The position numbers and the translations under genes are program-made. Under the pieces are notes generated by a model. It had not been told where the DNA came from. It did not search any database and was given only the letters and a program-made list of their open reading frames with translations. 36,019 nucleotides of DNA from Candidatus Bipolaricaulota bacterium (GTDB lineage Bacteria; Bipolaricaulota; Bipolaricaulia; UBA7950; UBA9294), in assembly GCA_026390345.1 (NCBI GenBank), contig JAPLGD010000090.1:1-36019 (forward strand). The letters are read 5' to 3'. Below are positions 848 to 19,829 of the stretch, piece after piece; positions within the stretch are counted from its first letter, which is position 1, and each line of letters begins with the position of its first letter.

Positions 848-893
848 TTGACAAGCAGCGGGTGCCCGGTAGACTATTGCACTCATGTGCAAT
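848..893 (+). promoter_or_regulatory. Promoter and ArsR-type operator for the first arsenic operon
   Basis: A consensus -35 box TTGACA (848-853) is followed after 16 bases by a -10 box TAGACT (870-875). Immediately downstream is a perfect palindrome, ATTGCACTCATGTGCAAT (876-893), with 7-bp arms around TCAT, covering the expected transcription start. A dyad over the start site just ahead of an ArsR gene is the classic layout for autorepression released by metalloid binding. The boxes and palindrome are read directly; the identity of the binding protein is inferred from position. Confidence 0.75.
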
Positions 894-910
894 GTACCAA
901 GAGTGCCAAG

Positions 911-1201
911 ATGAGGCAAGCGACCGCGCTGACACGCATCGGGAAAGCGCTAGCGCTTCCCGTGCGGGAGCGGATGCTGTGGATGCTTGCGGATCGAGAA
1001 CGCTGCGGGTGCGAGTTCGCGCCCGAGCTTGGCCTCGATCAGTCCGTCGTGTCTCGGCACTTCGCAGTCCTTGAGCGGGCCGGCCTCGTCTCGTCCAGAC
1101 GCGATGGTGCGCGTGTGCTTTGGAGCCTCGCAGACCCGGAGATTCTGCGGGTCCTAGAAGAGCTATCTGAACTGGTCCGAGACAAAGAGGCCGTGCAATG
1201 A
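911..1201 (+). CDS. arsR: ArsR-family metalloregulatory repressor
   Basis: A 96-residue winged-helix DNA-binding repressor of the ArsR/SmtB family. Residues 7-30 (LTRIGKALALPVRERMLWML) form the usual N-terminal helices. A Cys-x-Cys pair (C32 and C34, in ERCGCEF) sits at the start of the recognition helix, where classical ArsR proteins bind trivalent arsenic. The helix-turn-helix follows (LDQSVVSRHFAVLERAGLV) and then the wing. The ATG at 911 is chosen because the predicted transcription start lies near 882, which excludes longer in-frame versions; its ribosome site is weak. Its stop overlaps the start of the permease gene as ATGA, so the two are translationally coupled. It probably represses the long operon through the palindrome at 876-893 and is released by arsenite or a trivalent organoarsenical. 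Confidence 0.9.
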   Translation: MRQATALTRIGKALALPVRERMLWMLADRERCGCEFAPELGLDQSVVSRHFAVLERAGLVSSRRDGARVLWSLADPEILRVLEELSELVRDKEAVQ

Positions 1202-2283
1202 GGCCCGGAGACGACGCGGCCTCAGCGCCTGCGGGTCCTGGTCGTGCTCCCGTGTCGCGGCGATGGCGCTTCGCGTCGCGCGTGGCCCTCGTGCTCTTGG
1301 GGGCCGCAGCTTGGTACTTCGTGTATGTGAACCTCGAGGCGTTTTCCACATGGTTCACCTACTCGCTGCTCGGGATGACCGCGGGGACCCGCCTGGCCTC
1401 GGCTATTGCCTTCCTCATCTACGAAGCGCCCAAGGTCCTTCTGTTGTTGACCTTGGTTGTCTTCGCCGTGGGGATTGTGCGCACTTTCTTCACCCCGGAG
1501 CGAACGCGTCGCATCCTTGCGGGGAAGCGCGAGACTGTGGGCAACGTGCTGGCTGCTTTGCTTGGCGTCGTGACCCCCTTTTGCTCCTGCTCCGCTGTGC
1601 CACTCTTCATCGGCTTCGTCAGCACGGGGGTGCCGCTTGGTGTCACGTTCTCGTTCCTCATCGCGGCGCCGATGATCAACGAGGTCGCGCTCGTACTCCT
1701 CTTCGGTCTCTTCGGCTGGAAGGTGGCGCTGCTGTACATGGGAACGGGCTTGGTGATTGCGATTGCGGCAGGCTGGGTCATCGGGCGACTGAAGCTCGAG
1801 CGCTGGGTTGAGGACTGGGTTCGCCAACAGGCTGCGGGAAATGCCGACGACGGCGCGAGCTCGCTCGCGTGGAGCGATCGTGTGCGATTGGGTCTTCACG
1901 CCGTGAAGGACATCGTCGGGAAGGTGTGGCCCTACGTGCTGGCCGGCATCGTCGTCGGCGCGGGCATTCACGGCTACGTGCCGGAGAACTTCATGGCCTC
2001 GATCATGGGGAAGGGAGCGTGGTGGTCCGTTCCGCTGGCTGTGTTGATCGGGATCCCGATGTACTCCAACGCGGCGGGCATCATCCCCGTGGTGCAGGCC
2101 CTCCTCAGCAAAGGCGCGGCGCTTGGCACGGTGCTCGCATTCATGATGGCGGTCATCGGGCTGTCGTTGCCTGAGACGATCATCCTGCGAAAGGTTCTGA
2201 AGATGCCGCTCATCCTGACCTTCGTGGGTGTCGTAGGCCTCGGAATCCTGATCGTGGGGTACTTGTTCAATGCCGTCCTGTGA
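1198..2283 (+). CDS. ArsP/SO_0444-type permease (DUF318 family), likely metalloid exporter
   Basis: A 361-residue polytopic inner-membrane protein with about eight to ten hydrophobic segments. The family signature TPFCSCSAVPLFIGF lies at about residues 123-137 and is followed by a glycine-rich GVPLGVTFSFLIAAPMINE segment. A second conserved block (IGIPMYSNAAGIIPVVQAL) occurs in the C-terminal half. Members of this family include ArsP, which exports trivalent methyl and aromatic arsenicals, and SO_0444-type transporters proposed for other metals. The paired cysteines of CSC are the likely metalloid-binding residues. The gene starts with an ATG overlapping the arsR stop and is first in the operon after the regulator, which favours metalloid export. 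The exact substrate cannot be read from sequence. Confidence 0.85.
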   Translation: MRPGDDAASAPAGPGRAPVSRRWRFASRVALVLLGAAAWYFVYVNLEAFSTWFTYSLLGMTAGTRLASAIAFLIYEAPKVLLLLTLVVFAVGIVRTFFTPERTRRILAGKRETVGNVLAALLGVVTPFCSCSAVPLFIGFVSTGVPLGVTFSFLIAAPMINEVALVLLFGLFGWKVALLYMGTGLVIAIAAGWVIGRLKLERWVEDWVRQQAAGNADDGASSLAWSDRVRLGLHAVKDIVGKVWPYVLAGIVVGAGIHGYVPENFMASIMGKGAWWSVPLAVLIGIPMYSNAAGIIPVVQALLSKGAALGTVLAFMMAVIGLSLPETIILRKVLKMPLILTFVGVVGLGILIVGYLFNAVL

Positions 2284-2361
2284 CCGGCCTACGTAGAAGG
2301 TGCGGCCACAGGCGGTGACCAGTCCAGTGTCAATCCGCGGGAGATTCTGGAGAGGTGCGAA

Positions 2362-2739
2362 ATGGTGGAGCCATGCAGCTGCAACACGAGTGACCGAGTG
2401 GTGCTGGTGTTCCCGTGCTCTGGGAGTTCGGACGTTGGGGAATTGGCCGATCGTAGCGCGCGGAACCTGGATCGAGCTGGCACGGCACAGATGTACTGCC
2501 TTGCCGGACTCGGCGGGCGCGTGACAGGGATTGTCACGATGACGAAGGCAGCGGGCTTTCGCCTCGCGATTGACGGGTGCGCTGTCGGTTGTGCAAGCAA
2601 GATCCTCGAGCAGGCGAAGGTGGGTCCGTTCCGCCATGTCTGCGTAACGGATCTGGGTTTCGAGAAGGGCGGAACGGATGTGACGGAAGCGGCGGTCGCT
2701 GCAGTTGCGCGCGCGGCAGAAGAAGAACTGCTGGCTTGA
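2362..2739 (+). CDS. DGC-domain putative zinc-binding protein
   Basis: A 125-residue soluble protein of the DGC family, named for its conserved Asp-Gly-Cys. The N-terminus has a cysteine pair (EPCSCNTSD), then VLVFPCSGSSDVGELADRSAR, a central CLAGLGG, and the diagnostic DGCAVGCASKILEQA at about residues 72-86. The many conserved cysteines suggest a metal- or metalloid-binding cytoplasmic protein. The family has no firmly established activity. The ATG at 2362 has a ribosome site (GGAGAGG) at suitable spacing. It lies between an exporter and a thioredoxin-fold lipoprotein in an apparently single operon, so a role in metalloid sensing, buffering or hand-over to the permease is plausible but unproven. 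Confidence 0.8.
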   Translation: MVEPCSCNTSDRVVLVFPCSGSSDVGELADRSARNLDRAGTAQMYCLAGLGGRVTGIVTMTKAAGFRLAIDGCAVGCASKILEQAKVGPFRHVCVTDLGFEKGGTDVTEAAVAAVARAAEEELLA

Positions 2740-2758
2740 TCGGCGTGTGAGGAGGGGC

Positions 2759-3394
2759 ATGGGCCAGATGAGAGGGTTCCATAGGGAGCTTGCCAGTTAC
2801 GGCGCGATGGGTGCTGCGATCGTGGCACTCTGTCTCGCGCTTCTTTTCGTAGCCGTTGGCTGCTCCAAGCCGTCGGCGACGGCGGCCCCATCGGCCGCCA
2901 ACCTCCCGAAGTCCGCGACACCAGGCGAGACGACAGCGGTGGGCGCGCCCGCGTCGCAGACCACGGTGCCTGCATCGGCGGAGGTGGTCGTGATGCCGGT
3001 GCTGGGCGGCGCCCCGTCCGTGGCGCCAGCTGTCGATAGTGCGCCGGGAGGGCCTGCAGGCCAACTGCCTGCAACGCAGACCGCTGCAAGCGCCGTGTCC
3101 GGAACCGTCCGGCTCCCTCGGCTCGTCGACCTCGGAGCGGGAAAGTGCATCCCCTGCAAGAAGATGGCGCCGATCCTGGAGGAGCTGGCTGAGACGCACA
3201 AAGCGTTCTTCTCGGTGGAGGTCATCGACGTTTGGGTGAACCCGGACCAAGGCAAGGAGTACAACGTCCGAATCATCCCGACCCAGATCTTCTACGACGC
3301 ACAGGGGCGGGAACTCTACCGTCACGTTGGCTTCTACTCGAAAGAAGAGATCTTGAGCAAGTGGCGGCAACTGGGAGTCAACGTAGGCTCCTAG
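2759..3394 (+). CDS. Thioredoxin-fold lipoprotein
   Basis: A 211-residue exported protein. Residues 17-34 form a hydrophobic signal ending in a lipobox (FVAVGC), so C35 is probably lipidated. A low-complexity Ala/Pro/Thr linker runs to about residue 115. A thioredoxin domain follows with the active site C130-I-P-C133-KK, a conserved cis-proline region (VRIIPTQIFYD) and the C-terminal helix. It should act as a periplasmic thiol reductant or oxidant facing the CcdA-type carrier encoded just downstream. AGGAGG lies three bases before the ATG at 2759; an alternative ATG at 2768 has looser spacing and would drop three residues. A disulfide role in arsenical handling is inferred from the operon. 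Confidence 0.85.
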   Translation: MGQMRGFHRELASYGAMGAAIVALCLALLFVAVGCSKPSATAAPSAANLPKSATPGETTAVGAPASQTTVPASAEVVVMPVLGGAPSVAPAVDSAPGGPAGQLPATQTAASAVSGTVRLPRLVDLGAGKCIPCKKMAPILEELAETHKAFFSVEVIDVWVNPDQGKEYNVRIIPTQIFYDAQGRELYRHVGFYSKEEILSKWRQLGVNVGS

Positions 3395-3418
3395 CCGGGA
3401 GAGGGGAGTCGAGAACCG

Positions 3419-4117
3419 ATGGAAACCGTCCTATCCGCGCTCTCTCAGGCCATCGGAGGCAGCGTGCCGCTGGCCCTCGGGGCTGCCTTTGCCTGGGGCG
3501 TGCTCAGCATCCTCTTAAGCCCGTGCCACTTGGCAAGCATCCCGCTGATCGTCGGCTACATCGGGCGGGAGGGATCGATGTCGACCCGCCGGGCTCTCGC
3601 TCTCTCGGTGACGTTCGCCGTGGGCATCTTGATCACGATTGCCGCAGTGGGCGGCGTTACGGCCGCGGCGGGCCGAATGATCGGAGACGTTGGCCGAATC
3701 GGGAACTACGTCGTCGCTGCGGTGTTCTTCTTTGTCGGGCTCTATCTCCTCGACGTGATCCCGCTGTCGTGGGCCGTTCCCTCGGGAACCCGAGTCCGGC
3801 TCGGCGGCTTGCCCGGCGCGCTGGTCTTGGGACTGCTGTTTGGCGTTGCGCTCGGACCTTGCACGTTCGCGTACATGGCGCCGATGCTCGCAGTGGCATT
3901 CGACCTCGGGACGTCGAATGTCGCGCTCGCGGTGGTTCTTCTGCTGGCGTTCGGCCTCGGCCATTGCAGCGTGATCGCGATCGCCGGCACGTCCATGGGA
4001 GCCGTCCAGAAGTACCTGCACTGGAACGAGAAGAGCCGCGCCATCACGTGGGTGAAGCGGATCTGCGGGGTTCTTGTGATCTGCGGCAGTGGGTACCTTA
4101 TCTACACTGCCCTGTAG
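3419..4117 (+). CDS. ccdA: CcdA/DsbD-type transmembrane thiol electron carrier
   Basis: A 232-residue inner-membrane protein with six predicted membrane helices, the normal size for CcdA. The two redox cysteines of the family are present: C36 in LLSPCHLASIPLIVGYIG and C148 in VALGPCTFAYMAP, each inside a helix next to a proline. CcdA proteins move reducing equivalents from cytoplasmic thioredoxin to periplasmic thioredoxin-like proteins. Its neighbours are exactly such partners, a periplasmic thioredoxin lipoprotein upstream and a small cytoplasmic CPKC thioredoxin downstream. The ATG at 3419 follows a purine-rich GGGAGAGGGGAG stretch. Its membership in the same superfamily as the two ArsG proteins further along gives three related carriers in one cluster. 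Confidence 0.88.
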   Translation: METVLSALSQAIGGSVPLALGAAFAWGVLSILLSPCHLASIPLIVGYIGREGSMSTRRALALSVTFAVGILITIAAVGGVTAAAGRMIGDVGRIGNYVVAAVFFFVGLYLLDVIPLSWAVPSGTRVRLGGLPGALVLGLLFGVALGPCTFAYMAPMLAVAFDLGTSNVALAVVLLLAFGLGHCSVIAIAGTSMGAVQKYLHWNEKSRAITWVKRICGVLVICGSGYLIYTAL

Positions 4118-4137
4118 CGCGGCGAAAAGGAGCGCGC

Positions 4138-4368
4138 ATGCGGATTGAGGTTCTAGGAACGGGATGTCCGAAGTGCAAGGCGACCGTGGCGAACGCCCAG
4201 AAGGCCGTGGCCGAGCTGGGTATCCAGGCGGAGGTTGTCAAGATCGAGGATCTCATGGAGATCGCGTCGCGTGGCGTGATGATGACGCCGGCGGTTGTCG
4301 TCGACGGCGAGGTCAAGGTCGTCGGGAAGATCCCGACGGTGGACGAGATCAAGAAGTGGCTCTCGTAG
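4138..4368 (+). CDS. Small thioredoxin-like redox protein (TM0996 type)
   Basis: A 76-residue cytoplasmic protein of the 'small redox-active disulfide protein 2' or TM0996 group. It starts MRIEVLGTGCPKCK, with the active-site pair C10 and C13. It continues through a short alpha/beta fold with the cis-proline loop MMTPAVVVDGEVKVVGKIP. It is the smallest thioredoxin form and lacks a signal peptide, so it is the likely cytosolic electron donor for the adjacent CcdA-type carrier. The ribosome site AAAAGGAG precedes the ATG. In Shewanella the ArsF and ArsG proteins work with a third protein, ArsE. Whether this gene fills that place cannot be decided here. Confidence 0.85.
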   Translation: MRIEVLGTGCPKCKATVANAQKAVAELGIQAEVVKIEDLMEIASRGVMMTPAVVVDGEVKVVGKIPTVDEIKKWLS

Positions 4369-4398
4369 GGGAATCGCTGCTCCGGGAAGGAGACCAAG

Positions 4399-4719
4399 AT
4401 GAGACTGCTTGCGGAATGGTTTCCGGAATTCGCAGAGAAGCTCGATGAGATCGACGAAATCTACGCCGAGAAACGCTCGATCGACGAGAAGACCTACCAG
4501 TTGATCTGCTTCGCCCTGTCGATCAAGAACCGCTCGAAGCCGTGCCTTCTCAAGCACTTCAAAGGGGCTCTGGCTGCGGGGGCGACGCTGAAGGAGCTTA
4601 GCTACATCATGGCGCTCACGTTCCGCGAGAGTGCCGGTGGCGACGACTGCTGGACGCACGATGCGCTCGGCGATGTCCAGAGGCTCATCGCGGAGAACAT
4701 CAAGTGCTGCCCGAAGTGA
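4399..4719 (+). CDS. AhpD-like carboxymuconolactone decarboxylase-family protein with altered cysteines
   Basis: A 106-residue all-helical protein of the carboxymuconolactone decarboxylase/AhpD superfamily. The central helix pair (SIKNRSKPCLLKHFKGALAAG, split across residues 41-61) matches the position of the AhpD Cys-x-x-Cys-x3-His motif. Only the second cysteine (C49) and the His (H53) remain; the first position is Ser. Additional cysteines sit at C84 (GGDDCWTHD) and in the tail (KCCPK). AhpD proteins normally relay electrons to peroxiredoxins. With one catalytic Cys missing, this protein may instead bind metalloid or pair its Cys with another protein. AAGGAG lies ahead of the ATG, and it is cotranscribed with the thioredoxin and arsF genes. 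Confidence 0.8.
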   Translation: MRLLAEWFPEFAEKLDEIDEIYAEKRSIDEKTYQLICFALSIKNRSKPCLLKHFKGALAAGATLKELSYIMALTFRESAGGDDCWTHDALGDVQRLIAENIKCCPK

Positions 4720-4777
4720 GCACCGCCAGGCGCCGACTGCGCTGCTTGGCGATGGCATTTGTCGTTGGGGAGGTTCC

Positions 4778-5275
4778 TTGATCTGGCTGAGAAGGGCTGC
4801 GGCGTTCCTGTTGTTGGCGTTCGTTGTGGCGAGCGTCGTCACTCTGGTCGCCAAGGAGGTCACCCATCGCGAACCGGCCGAGCCGCCCGTAAGGATCGTC
4901 CCGCTTACGACAGATACTGAGAGCGCGGACGGCACGTGCCGCATTGTCGCCTGCTACTTCCATAACACGGACCGCTGCTCCACGTGTCTCGAGATTGAAC
5001 GAACCGCCCGCGAGGTCGTAGAGAAGACGTTCTCCGCCGAACTCGCGAGCGGACAACTAACGTGGGTCGCCCTCAACATGGAAGAGGAGGAGAACCGAGC
5101 GTACATCGCGCAGTTCGATCTTGCGATGCCGACGCTCGTTGTCCTCCGGGTGAAGGGCGGCGCCGTGGAGGACTGGACGCCGCTCGACGACACGTGGGGA
5201 CTGATCCGGAATGCCGTCAGGTTTTCCATGTACGTGACGGACAACGTTCGGAGATATCTGGAGGGATGCTCGTGA
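4778..5275 (+). CDS. arsF: ArsF-family thioredoxin-like nitroreductase subunit, copy 1
   Basis: A 165-residue membrane-anchored protein with one N-terminal hydrophobic segment (residues 7-25). A periplasmic thioredoxin-like domain follows with the family signature CYFHNTDRCSTCLEIE. The Cys-x-x-Cys is C67/C70, with extra cysteines at 54 and 59. ArsF-family proteins were described as part of arsEFG of Shewanella, where ArsE and ArsF reduce nitrophenyl arsenicals and ArsG exports the amino product. The start is a TTG at 4778, preceded by GGGGAGG at good spacing; no ATG in this frame would keep the signal anchor. Its stop overlaps the GTG of arsG as GTGA. A second, diverged copy lies at 6879-7469. 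Confidence 0.82.
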   Translation: MIWLRRAAAFLLLAFVVASVVTLVAKEVTHREPAEPPVRIVPLTTDTESADGTCRIVACYFHNTDRCSTCLEIERTAREVVEKTFSAELASGQLTWVALNMEEEENRAYIAQFDLAMPTLVVLRVKGGAVEDWTPLDDTWGLIRNAVRFSMYVTDNVRRYLEGCS

Positions 5276-5961
5276 GCGGCTGGCTGTGGGCAGCACTGAC
5301 GGCTTCCTGGCTCGGGATTCTGACGTCACTCAGCCCGTGCCCACTGGCCACGAACATCACCGCCATCTCGTTCGTCGGCCGCCGTACGGGATCGCCGCGC
5401 GGGGTTCTGCTGGCCGGCCTCCTGTACGCTCTTGGACGGACGGCCGTCTACGTGCTGATCGGGACGCTTCTGGTATCAAGCCTGTTGTCTGCCTCAAGCG
5501 TGTCGATCGCACTTCAGGCTTGGATGAACAAGATCCTGGGACCGCTCCTGATCCTCGTCGGGATGGTCATGCTGGATCTCCTGCGGGTCACGCTGAAAGG
5601 ACGCGGGTTTGGTGCGCGGTTTCAGCAGCGCGTGGAGCGCTGGGGAATTCTGGGCGCGCTCGCGCTGGGAGTCGTCTTCGCCCTGACGTTCTGCCCTGTG
5701 TCTGCGGCGTTGTTCTTCGGGAGCCTCATTCCGCTGTCCATTCAGCACGGATCGGGTGTGGTTCTTCCGTTCCTCTTTGGGATCGGGACGGCACTGCCGG
5801 TCATCGTGGTGTCGGTGCTCCTTGCCTCCGGTGCCCGGTTCCTTGGGAGCTTGTTCAGCAAGATGACTCAAGTGGAGCGCTGGATGCGCTGGGCGACGGG
5901 AGCCGTGTTCGTCGGGGTTGGCATCTACCTGTCGTTGACTCACATCTACGGGGTGTTGTAG
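5272..5961 (+). CDS. arsG: ArsG-family CcdA-like efflux permease, copy 1
   Basis: A 229-residue, six-helix membrane protein of the CcdA superfamily matching the ArsG group. Paired intramembrane cysteines are C23 (TSLSPCPLATNITAISFVGR) and C141 (FALTFCPVSAALFFGSL). ArsG is reported as the exporter of trivalent aromatic aminoarsenicals. The retained CcdA cysteines suggest it could also pass electrons to ArsF. The GTG at 5272 is chosen over the ATG at 5266 because GGAGG (5260-5264) is seven bases from the GTG but one base from the ATG, and the GTG gives a GTGA overlap with arsF. Compared with copy 2 it has the same length and cysteine positions, with about half the residues identical. Confidence 0.82.
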   Translation: MSGWLWAALTASWLGILTSLSPCPLATNITAISFVGRRTGSPRGVLLAGLLYALGRTAVYVLIGTLLVSSLLSASSVSIALQAWMNKILGPLLILVGMVMLDLLRVTLKGRGFGARFQQRVERWGILGALALGVVFALTFCPVSAALFFGSLIPLSIQHGSGVVLPFLFGIGTALPVIVVSVLLASGARFLGSLFSKMTQVERWMRWATGAVFVGVGIYLSLTHIYGVL

Positions 5962-6018
5962 GGCTGTGCGTCGGGAAACTCAGGCGCGGTCCAAGAAAGA
6001 AGAGTGGGAGGGTACGAC

Positions 6019-6717
6019 ATGAGACTTCGGATACTCGGCACTGCGATCCTGATGGCGGGGATCCTCGCGACGACGCTGCTGGCTGCTCCAGTCATCTCGG
6101 TGGATGCTGACACATATGACTTCGGATCGGTGCTGGAGGGGACGCTTGTTACCCATCGGTTCATCATCACCAATCTCGGTACCAGCCCCCTCGAGGATCT
6201 GCGTGCGGTAAGCAAGTGCGGCTGCACAACCTCTTCTCTGTCCACAACCAAGCTGGCTCCAGGGACGTCCGTCGAGGTTGAGGTCACGTTCAATACCTCC
6301 GGCTACGGGGGAAAGACAGTGACGAAGTCGGTGTCCGTTGAGTCGAACGACCCCAAGAAGCCAACGCTCTCCCTGCACCTCACGGGGAAGGTCACCCGTC
6401 TCGCGACGTACAACATTGCGGTCACCGATCTGAAGAACCTCGTCTACATCATGGTCGACCTGCGCTCTCCCGAGGCGTACGAGCAGAGCCACATCATCGG
6501 GGCGGTGAACATCCCATACGAGCAGTTCGCCGCGTCCGTGAGTCTACTTCCTTCCGGTACCCTGATCGTTGTCTACGATGCGGACGGAACAAAGGGCGAT
6601 CAGATCGCCAAGATGCTGATTCAGAACGGCCATCTCGACGCGAAGAGCCTCGTCGGAGGGTTCGCGATGTGGGTGGCCCAGATGGGAAAGGCATTCCTCT
6701 GGCCACTCGGGCAGTAG
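6019..6717 (+). CDS. Secreted DUF1573 protein fused to a Cys-less rhodanese-like domain
   Basis: A 232-residue exported protein. The signal peptide covers residues 1-23 (cleavage near LAAPV). A DUF1573 beta-sandwich domain (about 25-130) has the typical YDFGSVLEGTLVTHRFIITN opening and the conserved C67-G-C69-TT motif. A rhodanese-like domain follows (about 138-228; VDLRSPEAYEQSHIIGAVNIP). In active rhodaneses a Cys starts the loop after the central strand; here the equivalent is VVYDADGTKG, with Asp and no Cys. Sulfur transfer is therefore unlikely and a binding role is more plausible. GGGAGGG precedes the ATG. The gene sits between two ArsF-ArsG pairs, and a larger relative closes the ACR3 operon, so this fusion appears to belong to the arsenic function. 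Confidence 0.82.
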   Translation: MRLRILGTAILMAGILATTLLAAPVISVDADTYDFGSVLEGTLVTHRFIITNLGTSPLEDLRAVSKCGCTTSSLSTTKLAPGTSVEVEVTFNTSGYGGKTVTKSVSVESNDPKKPTLSLHLTGKVTRLATYNIAVTDLKNLVYIMVDLRSPEAYEQSHIIGAVNIPYEQFAASVSLLPSGTLIVVYDADGTKGDQIAKMLIQNGHLDAKSLVGGFAMWVAQMGKAFLWPLGQ

Positions 6718-6878
6718 GAACCTGGTAGAGTGTCGGATGCAGAGTCGGTCGAAAACCGGCGTTCCGCTGGGCGTCTTCCTGTCGTGGGGAGATCCTCCGG
6801 AATGACCCTTGCGCCATTCGGCAGAGTATGCGTCTGGGTTTATGCGCAAGGAGTAGGTTGCGGAATGAAGGAGATATT

Positions 6879-7469
6879 GTGGAACACAAGACCCTGCTGA
6901 TCGTTGTCCTCGTCGTCGCCGTCATCGCTGCGGCGACTGTTCTTATCGCGCGCGGGCCGGATCAAGAGACCGCTCGGGCCGCAGAGGTGTCGACAGCGGT
7001 GCCCCAAGCCGAAGCAAGCGCCGCGACGAGTGTGCTTTCGCAGGGCCAAGCGGCTCCCGTCGTGGCCACTCTCCAGAGTACACAAGCACAGACCCCGAGC
7101 GCCCTTTCTTCCCCAACCTCTGTGGTTCCGACTCGCCGGGTCATCGCAACCTACTTCCACAACACGGTCAGGTGCGTGACCTGCCGCTCGATCGAGCGGA
7201 TAGCGAAGGAGACGATCGAATCCACCTTCGCCGCCGAGTTGGCCTCGGGGAAGCTTGTCTGGCGTGCCCTGAACATGCAGGAGAAGGAGAACGAGCACTA
7301 CGCCATCGACTACTCGCTCGTGTCGCCGTCGCTCGTGCTCGCCGAGATGGACGGAGAGCGCGAAGTGCGCTTCAAGGTGCTGACTGATACCTGGAAGCTT
7401 GCCCACAAAGAAGCGCAGTTCGTCTCGTACGTCCAGACCGAGACCCGTGCCTTTCTTGAGGGGCTGTAG
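6879..7469 (+). CDS. arsF: ArsF-family thioredoxin-like nitroreductase subunit, copy 2
   Basis: A 196-residue paralogue of the protein at 4778-5275. It has an N-terminal membrane anchor (about residues 5-23) and a longer, low-complexity Ala/Ser/Gln linker to about residue 85. The ArsF domain carries ATYFHNTVRCVTCRSIER, with redox pair C99/C102. The segment ending ALNMQEKENEHYAIDYSLV matches copy 1 closely. The extra non-pair cysteines of copy 1 are absent, so the two may differ in substrate or partner. The GTG at 6879 is preceded by GAAGGAGA. The 161-base gap upstream holds no gene and could carry a separate promoter, but I see no clear boxes. The stop overlaps the next gene's GTG. Confidence 0.82.
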   Translation: MEHKTLLIVVLVVAVIAAATVLIARGPDQETARAAEVSTAVPQAEASAATSVLSQGQAAPVVATLQSTQAQTPSALSSPTSVVPTRRVIATYFHNTVRCVTCRSIERIAKETIESTFAAELASGKLVWRALNMQEKENEHYAIDYSLVSPSLVLAEMDGEREVRFKVLTDTWKLAHKEAQFVSYVQTETRAFLEGL

Positions 7470-8161
7470 TGCCGGCCTGGATTCTCGCCGCTGCCTCATC
7501 GCTCTGGTTCGGGATTCTCACATCGATTAGTCCGTGCCCGCTCGCCACGAACATCACAGCCATGTCGTTCGTCGGCCGGCGCGTTGGGAGCCCGAAGAAG
7601 GTACTTCTCGCCGGAGTCCTCTACACGCTGGGACGCTGTCTTACCTACCTGGCTCTGGGCTCGCTTCTCGTGGCGAGCCTTCTTTCCGCTCCGCGGGTCT
7701 CCCTCGTCCTGCAGAAGACGATGAACAAGGCTCTTGGGCCGATTCTTATCGCGGTCGGAATCCTTCTTCTCGAGATCATCCCGATCCACCTCCCCTCATC
7801 CGGATTCGCGCAGAGGGTCGGAGAGCGAATCGCGAAGTGGGGTCTCTTTGGCGCATTCTTGCTCGGAGTCCTCTTCGCTCTCACTTTCTGTCCGGTGTCG
7901 GCCGCCCTCTTCTTTGGCAGTCTCCTCCCCCTAGCGATCGAGCAGCACTCGCCGGTGTTGCTGCCGGCGTTGTATGGGATCGGGACCGGCGTCCCCGTCC
8001 TCGGGTTCGCGATCGCAATCGCACTGGGCGCCCAATCCCTCGGCAAGGTCTTCGGAAGACTCACGAAGGTCGAGCGGTGGGTCAGGCGGATCACGGGAGC
8101 TGTCTTCATCGGCGTGGGGATCTACCTTACCCTGCTGCACCTCGTGCGCGTGTGGGGGTAG
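7469..8161 (+). CDS. arsG: ArsG-family CcdA-like efflux permease, copy 2
   Basis: A 230-residue, six-helix inner-membrane protein, paralogous to the one at 5272-5961. The cysteines fall at the same residue numbers: C23 in SISPCPLATNITAMSFVGRR and C141 in FALTFCPVSAALFFGSLLP. The C-terminal KVERWVRRITGAVFIGVGIY is also conserved. It starts with GTG directly on the last base of the arsF stop, copying the overlap arrangement of copy 1. The block arsF-arsG was therefore duplicated as a unit and then diverged, or two such units were recruited. A role in export of, or electron supply for, arsenical reduction is inferred from family and context. Confidence 0.82.
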   Translation: MPAWILAAASSLWFGILTSISPCPLATNITAMSFVGRRVGSPKKVLLAGVLYTLGRCLTYLALGSLLVASLLSAPRVSLVLQKTMNKALGPILIAVGILLLEIIPIHLPSSGFAQRVGERIAKWGLFGAFLLGVLFALTFCPVSAALFFGSLLPLAIEQHSPVLLPALYGIGTGVPVLGFAIAIALGAQSLGKVFGRLTKVERWVRRITGAVFIGVGIYLTLLHLVRVWG

Positions 8162-8253
8162 GAACGGCAAATGGTCTGCGTGCGAGCGTAGCCGAGAGCC
8201 AGAGCGATGACCTAGCACCGAGGGCAAATCAAGCCCGTTGAGGGGAGAGTGAC

Positions 8254-9066
8254 GTGAGACCGAGAGCGAGCTTGTCGGCGATACTCCGTATCGTGCTTGG
8301 AGCACTGTTTCTCAGTAGCTGCAGCCAACTTCAGGGTGTCGAGGCGGTACTGGAGGCGTCGCCTGAAGAGGGCGCTGTTCCTCTTCGCGTCGAGTTCCGT
8401 ATCAGCGGTTCGACGCACGGCACGGGCGAGTCCGGCACGTTCACGCTCGATTTCGGCGATGGGACAGGTTCGGTGCAGGGCGACGACTTCGGCGTGCTCG
8501 TTCCTCACGTGTACGAGCGCGTGGGGGAGTATCAGGCGTGCCTGACGGTGACTGCCGCGGACGGGCGGATGGACGTCGCGACCGTCTCCGTCGACGTCTT
8601 CGAGAGCGTGCCGGAGGGCTCGGGGGTGGGGGAGAAAGCCTACGACTTCACCGCACTGAGCACGGATGGGCAAGAGATCACATTGAGCGAGTTCCGCGGT
8701 GACGTTGTGCTCATCGAGTTCTGGGGCTCGTGGTGCAAGCCCTGCAAGCAGAGCATGCCTCACATCAACGCTTTCTGGGAGACGTACCACGATCAGGGAT
8801 TCGTGGTCCTCGCGATCAGCACGGATGCCCAAGCCGAGGACGCTGTGGCTTACCTCGAGGCAAATGAGTTCACGGGGCTGACCTGCATCTGGGAGCCGGG
8901 CGGGAAGAAGACGCGCATCAAGCAGCTATACGAAGTGGACTGGATTCCGCGCTCGGTCGTCGTCGACAAGACCGGGACCGTTCGGTACAACGGGCATCCT
9001 ATGGACCTTGAGGCCGACCTTATCGAGACGCTGCTGGCGGAGCCCTTCGATCCAACGTCCCGATAG
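8254..9066 (+). CDS. Lipoprotein with PKD-like domain and TlpA-type thioredoxin domain
   Basis: A 270-residue exported protein. The signal ends in a lipobox (LFLSSC) with C23 as lipidated residue. Residues about 35-122 form a PKD-like immunoglobulin fold (DFGDGTGS, and a closing VYERVGEYQACLTVTAADG). A TlpA/ResA-type thioredoxin domain follows (about 130-262) with active site W-C161-KPC164-K and the typical FWGSWCKPCKQSMPHINAF context. A conserved Pro lies near the end (VDWIPRSVVVD). It should be a membrane-tethered periplasmic thiol reductant fed by a CcdA-type carrier. GGGGAGAG precedes the GTG start. PKD joined to TlpA is an uncommon pairing; the PKD part may act as a spacer or contact an envelope partner. 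Confidence 0.85.
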   Translation: MRPRASLSAILRIVLGALFLSSCSQLQGVEAVLEASPEEGAVPLRVEFRISGSTHGTGESGTFTLDFGDGTGSVQGDDFGVLVPHVYERVGEYQACLTVTAADGRMDVATVSVDVFESVPEGSGVGEKAYDFTALSTDGQEITLSEFRGDVVLIEFWGSWCKPCKQSMPHINAFWETYHDQGFVVLAISTDAQAEDAVAYLEANEFTGLTCIWEPGGKKTRIKQLYEVDWIPRSVVVDKTGTVRYNGHPMDLEADLIETLLAEPFDPTSR

Positions 9067-9166
9067 GTCGTGCAGTACAACGGCGAGCGCGCTAGAAACA
9101 GACAGGTCCCATGCAGCAGCCGACCAGCGGCATCACTAGACCTGAGGCTTGGGATTCTGTGTGATG

Positions 9167-9183
9167 CTTCACCTGTGGTGAAG
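9167..9183 (+). terminator. Hairpin between the two arsenic operons
   Basis: A perfect 7-bp stem, CTTCACC and GGTGAAG, closes a TGT loop in the gap between the TlpA lipoprotein and the second arsR. There is no T-run after it, so it is at best a weak or factor-assisted terminator. It could equally be an RNA-processing site or a binding dyad upstream of the next promoter. Confidence 0.35.
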
Positions 9184-9205
9184 ATGCCGGCGCGCGACGT
9201 TGGTT

Positions 9206-9244
9206 TTGTCATCGGAGTCGATTAGTGTACTATTCGTGCGAATA
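9206..9244 (+). promoter_or_regulatory. Promoter and operator of the second arsR operon
   Basis: A -35-like TTGTCA (9206-9211) and a -10-like TACTAT (9228-9233) are 16 bases apart. A 6-bp-arm palindrome, TATTCGTGCGAATA (9231-9244), overlaps the -10 and reaches the first ATG of arsR. A repressor bound here would block polymerase directly. The arms differ from the first operon's operator (ATTGCAC/GTGCAAT), so the two ArsR proteins probably recognise separate sites. Confidence 0.6.
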
Positions 9245-9681
9245 TGCAAACAGACTACGAGGACATGACGATCAACCATGTAGCATTGGCTGCAGGTCTT
9301 GGCGCGTTGGGGGATCCAATCCGCCTGCGGCTCTTGGCGTTGCTGATGGCTTTCACTGAGCCGCTGTGCGTGTGCGAGCTGGCCAGCGGACTTGGCGTCC
9401 CCGAGTACCAGACATCACGGCACCTCACTGCCCTGAAGCGCGCGGGGCTCGTCGCATATCGGAAGCAGGGTCTCTGGGCCTACTACAGTGTTACCGACAA
9501 TCCTCGCTTTCGATTCCTGCGCAATGGCGTTCGCGCCGATCCGCAGGATCTCGCGCGAATGCACTCGAGGTTGCAGCAGCGGGTCTCGGGGCTCTGCGTC
9601 GTCGGCCCATCAGGGGGACCTAGAGGCGAGCAAGGATCGGGAAGGCCCCGTGCAGGAACACGCAGGGTGAGAGCTGACTGA
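9244..9681 (+). CDS. arsR: ArsR-family metalloregulatory repressor, second copy
   Basis: A winged-helix repressor of 145 residues as drawn. The core (residues 12-100) has the family helix set. It carries the classical arsenic-binding motif ELCVCEL-like PLCVCELASGL (C42/C44) and a helix-turn-helix PEYQTSRHLTALKRAGLV. The C-terminal 40 residues are Gly/Arg/Pro rich and probably disordered. The first ATG (9244) touches the operator and would be nearly leaderless. The in-frame ATG at 9268, eight codons later, has GAGGA just before it and is a reasonable alternative. Followed by the ACR3 exporter gene, it almost certainly senses trivalent arsenic. It is only distantly similar to the ArsR at 911-1201. 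Confidence 0.88.
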   Translation: MQTDYEDMTINHVALAAGLGALGDPIRLRLLALLMAFTEPLCVCELASGLGVPEYQTSRHLTALKRAGLVAYRKQGLWAYYSVTDNPRFRFLRNGVRADPQDLARMHSRLQQRVSGLCVVGPSGGPRGEQGSGRPRAGTRRVRAD

Positions 9682-9783
9682 AGGGAAGAGGGTCCGAACA
9701 GAGATGGAAGTGCGTCACGGCACGCCGTCAGAAGATTCGATTTTCCCCACCTAGTCCACGGCGGGGAAGGGGAGTGATCAGCA

Positions 9784-10815
9784 GTGCATGGTTTCGAGAA
9801 GTACTTACCGATCTGGGTTGCCCTGTGCATGGGACTTGGGCTCCTCCTTTCCCAGACCGTGCCTGGGGTGGGTCAGACCATCGGTTCGTGGGAAGTGGGG
9901 GGCGTGTCGATTCCGATCGGCATCTGCCTCTTCCTGATGATGTACCCCGCAATGCTCAACCTGCAGGTTTCCGAGCTGCGCAAGCTGCGCGCGAACCCGA
10001 AGCCGATCCTTCTGACGCTCTTCTCGAACTGGATCTTCGCTCCTCTCGTGCACGTGGCTCTGGCAACCCTCTTCCTTCGCGGAAACCCGCAGCTCATGGT
10101 CGCGGTCATCCTGCTCGGGTCGAGCCCGTGCACAGCCATGGTACTCGTGTGGGGCAAACTCGCTGGAGGAAATCAGGAACAGAACGTCGTCAACACAAGC
10201 CTGAACACTCTGACCATCATCTTCCTCTACGTCCCGATCGTGTCACTCTTGACTGGGATGCAGAACATCCCGATCGATCGGGTGATGCTCCTCATTTCCG
10301 CCGGGGTGTTCATCGGTGCACCGCTCGTGCTCGGCATCGTCAGCAAGCGCCTGCTCAGCCGCGCCAAGGGTGTCGAATGGTTCGATCGAGTCTACCGACC
10401 CCTCGTTGGGAAGATCACAATCGTCGCCCTGCTCGTGACGCTCATTGTTCTGTTCGCGCTGAACGGCGATGTGCTGTTGCATCACTTTGACAAGCTCCTG
10501 CTCGTATCGGTGCCGTTGTTGCTTGCCTTCCCCATCGTCCTCGGGTTCAACGTACTCGTCACGCGGGCGCTCAAGTTCCGCTACCGCGAGGCGATCATCT
10601 CGACAATCATCGGGTCGTCGAGCCATTTCGAGATCGCGATTGCCTCGGCTGTTGGCATGTATGGAGTGGGCTCGCTTGCTGCGCTCGGAACGACAATGGG
10701 CCTCTTCTGGGAGGTGCCCGTCATGCTCAGTGTCGTCTACATAGGGAGGGCCCTGGGGCGCCGCGGATTCTGGGGCGACCCGAAAGGGGTGCCATCGAAC
10801 ATCGCGGGCTCATGA
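9784..10815 (+). CDS. acr3: ACR3-type arsenite efflux transporter
   Basis: A 343-residue inner-membrane protein with about ten helices, the usual ACR3 length, in the bile acid/arsenite/riboflavin transporter superfamily. The N-terminus reads EKYLPIWVALCMGLGLLL. The catalytic Cys of ACR3 proteins is present as C116 in LGSSPCTAMVLVWGKLAGG. The family-typical NQEQNVVNTSLNTLTI segment follows. Other ACR3 features are FMMYPAM-like LFLMMYPAMLNLQ and the late SSHFEIAIASAVGMYG block. It exports As(III), driven by the proton gradient. The GTG at 9784 follows a GGGGAAGGGGAG ribosome region. It lies behind its own arsR, and no arsenate reductase or ArsA ATPase accompanies it. Confidence 0.93.
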   Translation: MHGFEKYLPIWVALCMGLGLLLSQTVPGVGQTIGSWEVGGVSIPIGICLFLMMYPAMLNLQVSELRKLRANPKPILLTLFSNWIFAPLVHVALATLFLRGNPQLMVAVILLGSSPCTAMVLVWGKLAGGNQEQNVVNTSLNTLTIIFLYVPIVSLLTGMQNIPIDRVMLLISAGVFIGAPLVLGIVSKRLLSRAKGVEWFDRVYRPLVGKITIVALLVTLIVLFALNGDVLLHHFDKLLLVSVPLLLAFPIVLGFNVLVTRALKFRYREAIISTIIGSSSHFEIAIASAVGMYGVGSLAALGTTMGLFWEVPVMLSVVYIGRALGRRGFWGDPKGVPSNIAGS

Positions 10816-10856
10816 TTCGAGCATCTGAAGCGGCGCGGGAGCGGGGGGGGTGCCTG

Positions 10857-10871
10857 GCCTGCTTTGCAGGC
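10857..10871 (+). terminator. Hairpin after the ACR3 gene
   Basis: A 6-bp stem, GCCTGC and GCAGGC, closes a TTT loop 42 bases after the ACR3 stop. It lacks a following T-run. It may reduce read-through or stabilise the upstream message, while the next gene still belongs to the same unit by orientation and a gap of only 145 bases. Confidence 0.3.
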
Positions 10872-10960
10872 GCCCGCCACGCGGAGGAACACCTGCGCGG
10901 AAGCGCAGATTGCCGGTCCCGGCACGACTCGCCGGCGACAGGTGGACGAAAGGGAGAAGC

Positions 10961-12016
10961 ATGAGACGAATCATCGCTCTTCTGGCAATGTCACTTGTGT
11001 TGGCTAGCGCCGCGGCCGTGGCTGCTCCACAGATCGCCGTGGACCAAGAGACGTACAACTACCCGGATACGATCGAAGGGATCGCAGTGGTTCACACCTT
11101 CGTCCTGTCGAATGTCGGCGACCAAGAACTCGTCATCACGAACGTGACCGTCGGGTGCCACTGCACGACGACGCAACTCGCGACGGATCGGCTTCAGCCT
11201 GGCGAGAGCGTCGGCCTCCAGGCAATGCTAGACACCAATGGATTCTCGGACCGGGTCGTCCGCTACGTCACAGTGGAATCGAACGATCCGGCTCGTCCCC
11301 GACTCACGCTGAACCTGGCGGGCAAGGTTGTTGAGCGGCAGCCGTACCAGAAGCCGGTGGGCGACCTGTTCTACGATTCATACCTGCTTATCGACGTCCG
11401 GGACCCGGCGGCGTATGCCACAGGTCACCTGATCGCCGCGATGAATGCCCCGGCGAGCCAGGCAAAGGCGTACGCCGCTGCGCTGCCGCCGGGCGTTCTG
11501 ACAATCATCTATGATCAGGACGGTTCCACGGTGACGCCTGTCTTGGAGGAGTTCCGCGCTGAGGGGTTGGCCTCTGTATACGCGCTGCAAGGCGGCCTCG
11601 ATATGTGGCAGAAGAGCTATGGCTTGACGCGCATGGCGACGGGAGAGGACGCGTCGTGGGGTGCGTTTCTCGACGTCTCTGGCGCTCGCACCGACTCCTC
11701 ATCAGGGATGCTGCGGTACTACGACGTGACGCGACTCAGAACAGACTTCGTATTGATCGACATTCGTCCTGCGTCCGTCTTCTCCGCCGGCCACCTGGCC
11801 GGCGCCGTAAACCTTCCGGAAGCTAGCGTGGCTGAGTACGTCCGAACGCTGCCGCGGGACACTCCGGTGGTCATCTACAGCGACGATGGATCGGAGAGTG
11901 ACCCCGTGGCTGAGAGTCTACAGAAAGGCGGAAGGCGCGCGCAGAGTCTTCTTGGTGGATTCATCGAGTGGCGGAAGCAATATGGGAACTGCCTCATCGT
12001 TGCTTCAGCCAGCTAG
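10961..12016 (+). CDS. Secreted DUF1573 protein with two Cys-less rhodanese-like domains
   Basis: A 351-residue exported protein, a larger relative of the one at 6019-6717. The signal peptide covers residues 1-21. DUF1573 spans about 22-128 with C66-H-C68-TT in place of CGCTT. Rhodanese-like domain 1 spans about 140-225 (LIDVRDPAAYATGHLIAAMNAP). Rhodanese-like domain 2 spans about 250-345 (LIDIRPASVFSAGHLAGAVNLP). In both rhodanese domains the active-site Cys position is acidic or polar: IIYDQDGST in the first and VIYSDDGSES in the second. AAAGGGAG precedes the ATG. It is the last gene of the arsenic region, following ACR3. All three rhodanese domains in the window lacking the Cys points to a conserved non-catalytic use, perhaps binding. 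Confidence 0.82.
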   Translation: MRRIIALLAMSLVLASAAAVAAPQIAVDQETYNYPDTIEGIAVVHTFVLSNVGDQELVITNVTVGCHCTTTQLATDRLQPGESVGLQAMLDTNGFSDRVVRYVTVESNDPARPRLTLNLAGKVVERQPYQKPVGDLFYDSYLLIDVRDPAAYATGHLIAAMNAPASQAKAYAAALPPGVLTIIYDQDGSTVTPVLEEFRAEGLASVYALQGGLDMWQKSYGLTRMATGEDASWGAFLDVSGARTDSSSGMLRYYDVTRLRTDFVLIDIRPASVFSAGHLAGAVNLPEASVAEYVRTLPRDTPVVIYSDDGSESDPVAESLQKGGRRAQSLLGGFIEWRKQYGNCLIVASAS

Positions 12017-16106: not shown

Positions 16107-19100
16107 TCAGTAGTCTCGCTCGCTTCCCATGAGCATCAGCCCAAGGGTGATGGCTCGTCCGGCCCGCTCGAGGTCGCTCGCCTCCACGGCCCACGACGGG
16201 TCGTCGAGAGCGGTCGCTTCCCGCCACCGCTCATAGGAGAGGATCGCCTCGGGCGCCTTCTCGCCCGCCTCGAAGGCCGTCTTGCCGGAGAGCGCCGAAC
16301 GCAGATCGACGGCGGTCTCGGCGACCGCCATCCGCGACCCCATCCGCGACGCAGCCGACCGGAACAGGTTCGACAGGCGCATGCCACCCGACGTCTCCAC
16401 GGCAAGGCGCGACGTGGCGCCTCGCCCGAGCGCTTGTAGTTGCACGACGGCCTCGACCGCATAGCGACCGGGCGGGAAGATCGATCTCTTCAGGAACTCC
16501 TCGGCGCTCGGTTCGCCGCGGAACTCTCCTCCGGCCCATCCCACCCCGCTGTAGGCGACCAGCAGGAAGCTGCGGCTCGGCGCGTACTCGGACTGCTTAA
16601 GGAGCCGAGCCATCTCGAGAAGGACGGCAACCCCACTCGCGTTGTCGTTTGCATCTTCGCTCTCTGGTGAGCCCGGCCGGGTCGGCCAGCTGTCGTACTG
16701 TGCCAGCACGGCGATGACCTGGTTGTCGAGCTGGTCTCCCTGCGCGCCGCGCGTCCCCGGAATCCAGCCAACGACATGGCGTACCGCAACCTCGCCTCGA
16801 ATCTCGCCCTGGGCGCGAAGCGACGCCCGCCGCGGAAGGACGAACGTCAGCGGGTTTCGCGCATCCACCTCCGGAACGTCGTCCTTGAGACTGGCGAGAG
16901 TCCACCCTGAGCCCGCAAGGATTCGTTCCGCCGTCGCCTCAGAGATCCAGAATGTGACGCGGTCGATCGGCGTTGAAGCCGCGGACGTGACCGTGAGCGC
17001 CCAATCGGCGCGGCTCTCCGGTGAGACAACGGACCTGCGCGCGAGCGCCTCCTCGTCCGACGCCACGACGAGTACGGCAGCGCACCGCCTGCCCGCCAGG
17101 AGTTCGGCATCCTGCGACGACAGCACAAGGACGATCTCGTGCGAGAGGTCCACCCGCTTGAATCGGCTGACGTCGATCTCGCCGTATGTAGGGTCTTCGC
17201 CGAACGAGACGAAGCGGATCGAACCCTCTGCCTCCCCGATGCAGCGGAATCGATCCGCGTACTCCGCGAAGTCGATCCCATAGCGCAGCTCCGCTTCTCC
17301 GTCATCGAGCGCGAGGACCGGAACCTCCGTCAACCTCTCGAACCCGCCCGTGCTGGAGACGAAGTAGCCGCCGCCCCCGCCGATCGCCTGGAGCGACAGG
17401 CGTCCGAACTCCGTCGCGATGTAGTCGGCGGCCGACTCGGCGCCCGCCGTGCCGAGTTCGCGTCCGCCAAGCCCCACAGTCAGCGCCGCGACGTGCGTGG
17501 CCGCCCGGTCACCGTCGAACAGCGCGGCGTCGCGTCGATAGACGCCCGCCGGCCCCAGGCTGCCCGAGATGCAGTAGAACAGAATCCCGGCTGCTGCGGC
17601 GCCGGCGAACGTGTAGCGGTTGAACACGCGTCGCAGGTAGAAGCTGCCCCGCTCGATCTCTCGCCGGATCCCCTCGCCGAGGAGGTAGAAGCCGAACGAC
17701 GAGATGAAGATCGCGAGCGAGGGGTAGATGCCGAGCCACGGGTGAGCTCTAGCCGACTGGCGGAACGTCGCCAAGAGCGCGCCCCACTCCGGGACATCGG
17801 AGTAGTGGAGGGGCGGAGCGAACATCTCCATCTCCGCGTACGCGCCGCCGCCAAGGAAGATCCCGAGGAATCCGAGTTCGCCAAGGACGACGAGGACGGC
17901 CGAGAACTCGACCGCAAGAAGCGCCACGAGGGACGGCGCCATGTGCGGAAGCAGGTGCGCGGCCACCAGGCGCGGAGTTCTCATGCCCACGGCCCGAGCG
18001 CTCTCCACGAAGGGCCGCGACTTCAGCGCGATCATCTCCGCGCGCACGAACTGGGCCAGCTCGCCCCAACCGATCACGCAGAGACCAATCGCAAAGGGTA
18101 CGACCCCCTGACGGATGCCGACCGCAAGGATGACAAGCATGGCGAGGAGAAGCGCCGGGAACGGCGTGATAACCTGGGCAAGCCCAACGATCGCTCGGTC
18201 GAGGAACGAGCCGCGCCGCCACCCCGCAATCACACCCAGAAAAACCCCAACCACCATGCGTGCCGCAACGGCCACGGCGGCCAAGAGGAGAGTCTGCTGG
18301 GCTCCCGCAAGCACAAGGCTCATCAGGTCGCGTCCGAGAGCGTCGGTTCCCCATGGGAACTTCGCGCTAGGCGCGAACGGAGGCCCCATGTACGTTCCGC
18401 CGACCTTCTCGAGGCCGCGGGTGAGGTACGGGTTGTGCGGCGCAAGGTCCGCTCCGAAGAAGACCACGACGAGAACGCCAGCGCACAGAAGCCCGCCGGC
18501 AAGAAGCGGAAGGTTGGCATGGAAGCGGCCCCGGCGGGGACTGCGGGCCGATGCTTCCTCGGGAACGCGGACGCGCGGCCGTCGAGCGCGTCTCCTTGCG
18601 GCTCGGACCAGGTACGCCAGCCATTCGCGAGGGAGCCGGACAAGGGACCGCACGCCGTCGACGACGGCGGCGATCGCGTCGCGGAACGACGCCCGCGGCT
18701 CTTCGAGTTCGAGTGCCGCCTTACCCAAGCGCGGATCGAGGAGCGGGTACGAGAGCTCAAGGAGCATCTGGACTGCCAGAAAGACAAGGGCAAGCGAGAG
18801 CAGAAGCGCGACCGTCAAGTTGTCGTCCTGGTTCGAGATGGCCCGCAGCAGCGTGTATCCAGCGCCCGACCATCCGAAGTAGACCTCGACGACCGGCAGA
18901 CTCGCCAGGGCGAAACGAAGCGAGATGGCGGCCGTGGTCAAGACCGGCATCACGGCGTTCCGCGCGACGTGACGCGACAAGATTCTCGAGAACGCCACCC
19001 CTTTCCCGTAAGCGGTCCGCACGTAGTCCTGCTCCAGAATCTCCCGCACCTTGATGAACGTGATCCGCGCGATCTGGGAGACCGGCCTTGCCGCGAGAAC

Positions 19101-19646: not shown

Positions 19647-19829
19647 CGGACGCCCTCCCCCACTGCGTCGCTCTGCGGCCTGCAGTATAGCGCAGCGGCA
19701 GAGCCCAGACGCCGAATCGCCTCGCCAGTTGCCTTCTAGGTAGGGTGAGCCTACCCTAGTCTGTGTGTGACGGGCCGCGTGAGCGCGGACGATCCAATAG
19801 CCGGTCCGGAAGCGAGAAAGGGAGATGCG

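Follow-up and report, generated by a model that had tools for sequence, protein, structure and literature searches.

ArsE, ArsG and ArsF, encoded in an arsenic island of a Candidatus Bipolaricaulota bacterium, probably form a transmembrane dithiol relay of the DsbD type that serves arsenic export, and the island is likely to stack three conduits of this kind, CcdA, ArsG1, and ArsG2. The window analysed here (36,019 nucleotides; contig JAPLGD010000090.1, positions 1-36019) belongs to a 1.98-Mb metagenome-assembled genome (MAG) in 119 contigs, assembly GCA_026390345.1. At positions 911-12016 it carries sixteen genes, all on the + strand and arranged head to tail in two units, each led by an ArsR gene. 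The order is ArsR1, ArsP, DGC, TrxLP (an exported thioredoxin lipoprotein), CcdA, ArsE, AhpD-like, ArsF1-ArsG1, DUF1573-rhodanese, ArsF2-ArsG2, PKD-TlpA, ArsR2, ACR3, and DUF1573-rhodanese-rhodanese. An initial annotation had described this region as an arsenic island with a large thiol-redox relay whose genes run head to tail, with more redox partners than the arsEFG operon; family matches place all of the named genes on the + strand, and both the relay description and the greater breadth are supported. Computation directly shows which genes are present, the folds and relatives of their products, the invariant cysteines and the export signals, as well as the fusions, the slot exchange and the mosaic described below.

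In the proposed mechanism, arsenic would be sensed by the two ArsRs, which have As(III)-type CxC sites, and exported by ArsP and ACR3, while the cytosolic ArsE would pass electrons to the CcdA-fold conduits CcdA, ArsG1 and ArsG2. These conduits would re-reduce exported thioredoxin-fold proteins with a CxxC motif (TrxLP, ArsF1, ArsF2, and possibly TlpA), and perhaps also the CxC of exported DUF1573 proteins. ArsE-ArsG-ArsF would then correspond to a DsbD split in three pieces, exchangeable with ArsE-CcdA-thioredoxin. By analogy with DsbD and CcdA, we infer that electrons flow outward; passage from the CPKC protein through CcdA or ArsG to exported ArsF and thioredoxin, the route put forward in the initial annotation, is the best-supported topology. 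The CPKC protein encoded at 4138, which the initial annotation had not recognised as ArsE, belongs to the ArsE family (TIGR00412.2), and the cluster thus holds a complete ArsEFG set.

Folds and conserved cysteines of ArsG, ArsF and ArsE

CcdA is the sole convincing relative of ArsG among solved structures. ArsG matches Pfam DsbD_2 (PF13386), and a profile of 78 ArsGs compared with the PDB yields a sensible alignment with TtCcdA only (5VKV; E 0.033), in which cysteine falls on cysteine at the first site. The AlphaFold2 model of ArsG (predicted local distance difference test, pLDDT, 77) also finds 5VKV as its top PDB match (probability 1.00, E 3.2e-3, template modelling score 0.43), the next match lying at E 0.99, and hhalign connects ArsG with the CcdA of the window (97.3%, E 1.7e-11). 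All of the 85 ArsG sequences compared retain Cys141. The two ArsGs of the window, which are 59% identical, both have Cys23 and Cys141, and the two ArsFs, 41% identical, both have a Cys-x-x-Cys (CSTC and CVTC), as the initial annotation had stated.

A CxxC is retained in 85/85 ArsF sequences, and 77/77 begin with a hydrophobic segment that serves as signal or anchor. No significant Pfam domain was found in ArsF; its AlphaFold2 model (pLDDT 91) adopts a thioredoxin fold, with thioredoxins as the best PDB matches. ArsE, which matches Pfam Thioredoxin_3 and has no signal, displays a CxxC in all 77 sequences (77/77). At one further locus (L038:2798-3484, genome G016), two stop codons (TAG and TAA) interrupt the reading frame of arsG, so that this copy is probably broken or its sequence faulty.

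Fusions and exchange of conduits

At a Lentisphaeria locus (L085:3040-3774), a single open reading frame (ORF) encodes ArsE, a linker, one transmembrane helix and ArsF, and adjoins ArsG. Nine such ORFs occur in eight genomes of the phylum of L085, all beside ArsG, and in L196 an ArsE-helix-TrxLP ORF adjoins CcdA. Since lysine or arginine residues immediately precede the membrane helix, the fusions fit a predicted topology in which ArsE is inside and ArsF outside. In the linkers (L085, L183, L187-L193, L196), 3-12 cysteines are found among the 18-66 residues that lead up to the helix; these linkers could possibly act as a putative arsenic-binding tail.

The two types of conduit also occupy the same position. 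Among the 54 ArsE loci that were compared in the phylum of L085, the slot after ArsP-ArsE holds TrxLP and CcdA in 22 cases, ArsF and ArsG in 19, and both in none (Fisher p 2e-6, uncorrected for kinship). The exchange is directly visible where ArsR-ArsP-ArsE-DGC-TrxLP is followed by CcdA in one arrangement and by ArsF-ArsG in another. In the Bipolaricaulota, TrxLP-CcdA-ArsE occurs in genome G029, which lacks ArsFG, and in G002 the position of the window's ArsF2-ArsG2 is taken by a CPHC-thioredoxin::CcdA fusion. Clusters of the Bipolaricaulota frequently encode a protein in which a CcdA-type membrane domain is combined with exported thioredoxin-like domains (CPHC/CPDC), either one or two; ArsE and DUF1573 are nearby, as is often ACR3 (Table 1). 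One ORF in an Omnitrophota MAG (L115:9486-9998) looks like an ArsP-ArsF chimera, in which the beginning of ArsP runs into the C-terminal half of ArsF and no CxxC is left. A deletion or a fault of assembly is its likely origin, and the ORF was left out of account.

Genomic neighbourhoods

Neighbourhoods were compared at 80 named ArsG loci from many phyla and in 100 Bipolaricaulota genomes, in addition to the 54 ArsE loci above. Within 5 kb of ArsG, ArsF was found at 75 of the 80 loci, ArsE at 64, ArsP at 63, ArsR at 61 and ACR3 at 25; on the basis of these counts, ArsR-ArsP-ArsE-ArsF-ArsG is the general unit. The link of the relay to arsenic lies in the two exporters, in the CxC ArsRs, and in ArsC/ArsM-type ORFs, present in 22 ArsG loci. 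A plasmid of Prevotella nigrescens carries ArsF, ArsG, an ArsE-type thioredoxin, a permease, ArsC and ACR3, in that order, and ArsG relatives are few in plasmid and phage collections.

Other members of the island are scarce within the same distance of ArsG: TrxLP at 6 loci, DGC at 5, CcdA and AhpD at 1 each, and DUF1573 at about 0. A general link of ArsFG with DUF1573, CcdA or AhpD was consequently rejected outside the Bipolaricaulota, and the recurrent pairing with CcdA and DUF1573 that the initial annotation had proposed to look for elsewhere did not prove general, the usual partners being ArsP and ArsE. Of the 100 Bipolaricaulota genomes, 47 have ArsE, at 48 places in all, and 23 of these places have a DUF1573 gene no more than 5 kb away, against approximately 0.4 expected; the window-type CcdA is present in 10 genomes and adjoins ArsE wherever contig ends permit the test. 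Both associations, with CcdA and with DUF1573, are specific to the phylum, yet far above chance, and the tie between DUF1573 and the relay, which the initial annotation had raised as a possibility, stands within the phylum but fails for ArsFG in general.

Mosaic origin of the island

ArsR1 shares 99% identity, and ArsP 87%, with the corresponding protein of the relative G025, and ArsG2 is 82-83% identical to those of G025 and G001, to which ArsF2 is also closest. For DGC (67%), TrxLP, CcdA, ArsE, ArsF1, DUF1573 and TlpA, in contrast, the closest relative is G002, whose operon includes the TlpA orthologue; for ArsG1, identity with G002 reaches 86% across the portion of ArsG that is present there. 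DNA blocks follow the same division (Table 1). In the ArsG tree, ArsG1 is sister to G002 (support 100/99), and ArsG2 groups with G025 and G001 (100/100). Around the blocks, a search for repeats revealed nothing but a stretch of 78 nt over which the two arsG genes match. By these comparisons the island reads as a mosaic of two operon types that are found separately in relatives. The initial annotation had spoken of a duplicated ArsF-ArsG; two diverged pairs are indeed present, but protein identities, DNA blocks and tree point to the joining of operon types, and a simple tandem duplication was rejected.

This mosaic could be suspected of being an assembly chimera of two Bipolaricaulota strains, given that the MAG is in 119 contigs and that the blocks match different relatives. 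Such an origin is very improbable: the blocks differ by 13-30% in DNA from the relatives, so that no compared strain supplies them, reading frames are intact, spacing is operon-like, and G002 independently joins TrxLP-CcdA with ArsFG.

Weighing of the relay against other roles

Several observations speak against a relay. ArsG is reportedly credited with efflux, and ArsEF with nitroreduction (Chen, 2019, cited in PMC9144182). The invariance of Cys23 in ArsG (85/85) is partly built in, because loci were collected with the pattern PCPLATNI, which includes this residue, and Cys141 aligns two columns off the second cysteine of CcdA in both the profile and hhalign comparisons. ArsG may have a transport role, given that LysE-type transporters are remotely related to the CcdA/DsbD proteins and that ArsG2 itself shows weak LysE matches. 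At 32 Bipolaricaulota loci, neither conduit lies within 4 kb of ArsE. Slot exclusivity is not absolute, since the window and G002, alone in the Bipolaricaulota, hold both conduit sets near one ArsE, which in the window would be a consequence of the mosaic of two operon types. Lastly, the neighbour counts take no account of shared ancestry.

Databases annotate ArsF as a nitroreductase subunit and ArsG as an aromatic arsenical pump. Accordingly, ArsE and ArsF could form a reductase that converts nitrophenyl arsenicals to amino forms for which ArsG is the efflux permease, with two ArsFG sets for different organoarsenicals. The NCBIfam names, with scores above cut-off, agree with these roles, as reportedly does the experimental work of Chen et al. 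(2019), known to us through citations. We nevertheless regard them as unlikely: no nitroreductase or flavin domain was found in ArsE or ArsF by family searches, nor in the model of ArsF, which is an exported thioredoxin fold; ArsG is a CcdA fold with an invariant cysteine pair; an exporter, ArsP or ACR3, is usually already present in the same operon; and ArsFG exchanges with thioredoxin and CcdA. In addition, the hosts are mostly environmental MAGs, in whose habitats synthetic nitroarsenicals would be unlikely. The LysE kinship and the weak match of ArsG2 also bear on the idea of a permease role for ArsG, with As(III)/RAs(III) as substrate and the two membrane cysteines, to which arsenic could bind, as a metal site, ArsF being an external thiol acceptor and not an electron carrier; the ORFs in which the thioredoxin-like ArsE, with its CxxC, is covalently joined to ArsF, and the exchange of the slot with CcdA, a known electron carrier, make this distinctly unlikely. 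An arsenate-reductase role for CcdA, thioredoxin and ArsE was proposed for eight ars operons, seven of them with arsC (PMC2963123), and the 22 ArsG loci with ArsC/ArsM-type ORFs go in the same direction. The window, however, has no arsC, the one LMWPc gene of the genome being on another contig; ArsC is cytosolic, whereas ArsF and TrxLP are exported; and the authors of that proposal themselves doubted transmembrane flow (PMC2963123). Such a role is improbable here.

As to what the DsbD-like relay does for arsenic export, a tentative suggestion, one that we would not call likely, is that it maintains export-side thiols (the CxC of ArsP and of DUF1573) in reduced form, or that it reduces arsenicals outside for trivalent hand-out. 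Export-side thiol reduction is the first guess because ArsP, with its invariant CxC, is the commonest exporter partner (63/80 loci). A broader proposition, plausible yet somewhat short of probable, is that the whole ArsEFG family has been misassigned and represents an arsenic-induced DsbD-like relay, isofunctional with thioredoxin-CcdA, whose acceptor in the Bipolaricaulota would be a new exported DUF1573-pseudorhodanese in arsenic export.

Relation to known systems

ArsEFG, named from Shewanella putrefaciens and reportedly described in 2019 (Chen et al.), shares all three families with the window at scores above cut-offs, and ArsF and ArsG are direct neighbours here just as they are in relatives. 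The window differs in having two ArsFG pairs together with CcdA, TrxLP, TlpA, DUF1573, AhpD-like, DGC, ArsP and ACR3, and the role argued here is that of a thiol relay rather than a nitroreductase and pump. DsbD and CcdA-ResA likewise comprise a CcdA-fold conduit with two membrane cysteines, exported thioredoxin-fold acceptors, and a cytosolic thioredoxin-like donor; what distinguishes the cluster is the proposed dedicated ArsE donor, the arsenic operon, and the second cysteine of ArsG, which is in a C-P and not a P-C context. The ArsP-ArsE operons of the thioredoxin+CcdA type in the phylum of L085 (L209, L230, L234 and others) have the same gene order apart from the conduit, but there CcdA replaces ArsF-ArsG, whereas the window has both.

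The occurrence of CcdA, thioredoxin and an ArsE-family protein in ars operons, with the proposal of an arsenate reductase, dates from 2010 (PMC2963123); the window is without arsC and has ArsFG and DUF1573, and no ArsFG link was made in that work. The SAO and Tso selenoprotein operons include the same families (permease, rhodanese/DsbD-like, AhpD-like, DUF1573-type), which occur among selenoproteins or in operons with metal(loid) functions (PMC13188914). No selenocysteine was seen in the window, and neither assignment to these systems held: the window's ArsP scores 133.8 bits as SaoE, against an equivalog cut-off of 325, and TsoB membership was ruled out by a score under the family cut-off. 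A literature search, which reached few subscription papers, found no paper linking ArsFG to CcdA-type relays; novelty therefore seems to lie in how the genes are combined, in the fusions and in the argument from slot exchange; the kind of system is already known.

Gene content and regulatory sites

The CxC of ArsR is conserved in 77-87 of 91 aligned ArsRs, and both cysteines of the ArsP motif in 70/70 aligned sequences. The CxC of DUF1573 (CGC, CHC) is conserved in the homologues read from Bipolaricaulota. The catalytic cysteine is absent from all three rhodanese domains, being replaced by Asp, Asp and Ser (VVYDADG, IIYDQDG, VIYSDDG), and active rhodanese chemistry was rejected on this ground. 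The AhpD-like protein has no CxxC (PCLLKH) and scores 27.5 bits with TIGR00778, below the cut-off of 27.8; its five cysteines are conserved in all five aligned sequences. Judged from sequence alone, these rhodanese and AhpD-like proteins are therefore not to be counted as working redox enzymes. Exported DUF1573 with one or two rhodanese folds is a recurrent ArsE/ACR3-linked family in the Bipolaricaulota (L130-L165), with the catalytic cysteine missing in the loops read.

Intergenic gaps range from -4 to 161 nt through TlpA, and 198 nt precede ArsR2. Two promoter-like sites were detected in the window, against 1.7 expected by chance, and both directly precede arsR genes. As a result of these gaps and sites, the simplest reading suggests two arsenic-responsive units, 848-9066 and 9206-12016. 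A palindrome between the arsR1 promoter and start (0.01 expected by chance per window) is likely to be the operator of ArsR1; it is identical in L119, and ATTGC...GCAAT-type sites are located upstream of arsR in L117, L118, L121 and L126. Elsewhere in the window, a single minus-strand ORF of 1364 residues (16107-20201) encodes a peptidase M28 domain together with two ABC permease domains. A nitroreductase-family gene (PF00881; 25449-26387), not part of the operon, follows approximately 13 kb downstream of the arsenic genes.

Table 1. Features of the arsenic island, DNA blocks shared with relatives, and fusion loci in other clusters
Feature	Position	Strand	Match or remark
Promoter-like site TTGACA-16-TAGACT	848-875	+	before arsR1
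Palindrome ATTGCACTCATGTGCAAT (ATTGCAC-TCAT-GTGCAAT), putative operator	876-893	+	
ArsR1, ArsR/SmtB repressor, CGC motif (Cys32-x-Cys34)	911-1201	+	PF01022 45.8 bits
ArsP-type permease, CSC motif	1198-2283	+	PF03773 (ArsP_1) 253.6 bits, cut-off 32.3
DGC-domain protein	2362-2739	+	PF08859 98.2 bits
TrxLP, exported thioredoxin lipoprotein, CIPC	2768-3394	+	PF00085 44.1 bits; recurs with CcdA and ArsE
CcdA, membrane dithiol conduit	3419-4117	+	PF02683 (CcdA/DsbD_TM) 42.5 bits, cut-off 27.1
ArsE, cytosolic thioredoxin-like, CPKC	4138-4368	+	TIGR00412.2 'MTH895/ArsE' 109.3 bits, cut-off 62
AhpD-like (CMD) protein without CxxC	4399-4719	+	PF02627 30.9 bits
ArsF1, membrane-anchored or exported thioredoxin fold, CSTC	4778-5275	+	NF040494 91.8 bits, cut-off 60
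ArsG1, CcdA/DsbD-like membrane protein, Cys23 and Cys141	5272-5961	+	NF040495 280.9 bits, cut-off 200; PF13386
Exported DUF1573 (CGC) and rhodanese fold without catalytic Cys	6019-6717	+	PF07610 75.8 bits, PF00581 50.1 bits
ArsF2, CVTC	6879-7469	+	NF040494 100.0 bits, cut-off 60
ArsG2, Cys23 and Cys141	7469-8161	+	NF040495 286.5 bits, cut-off 200
PKD and TlpA/ResA-like thioredoxin lipoprotein, CKPC	8254-9066	+	PF00578 71.1 bits, PF18911 45.7 bits
Promoter-like site	9206-9233	+	before arsR2
ArsR2, LCVCEL motif	9265-9681	+	PF01022 44.0 bits
ACR3 arsenite exporter	9784-10815	+	PF01758 138 bits; TIGR00832 282.0 bits, just under cut-off 282.8
Exported DUF1573 (CHC) and two rhodanese folds without catalytic Cys	10961-12016	+	PF07610 58.9 bits, PF00581 84.3 bits
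DNA block	870-2283		matches G025, 87%
DNA block	~2389-6715		matches G002, 71-79%
DNA block	7128-8161		matches G025 and G001, 76-77%
DNA block	8291-8843		matches G002, 76%
Thioredoxin-like::CcdA-type fusions	L124:2131-3351, L127:8700-9839, L130, L134, L138, L143-L146, L148-L150, L152, L160-L162		

Implications

If ArsFG is indeed a relay exchangeable with thioredoxin-CcdA, many annotations and models of organoarsenical resistance would need revision, and the question of why arsenic export requires reducing power outside the membrane would become testable. The mosaic island and the fusions would offer ready constructs with which to address it.

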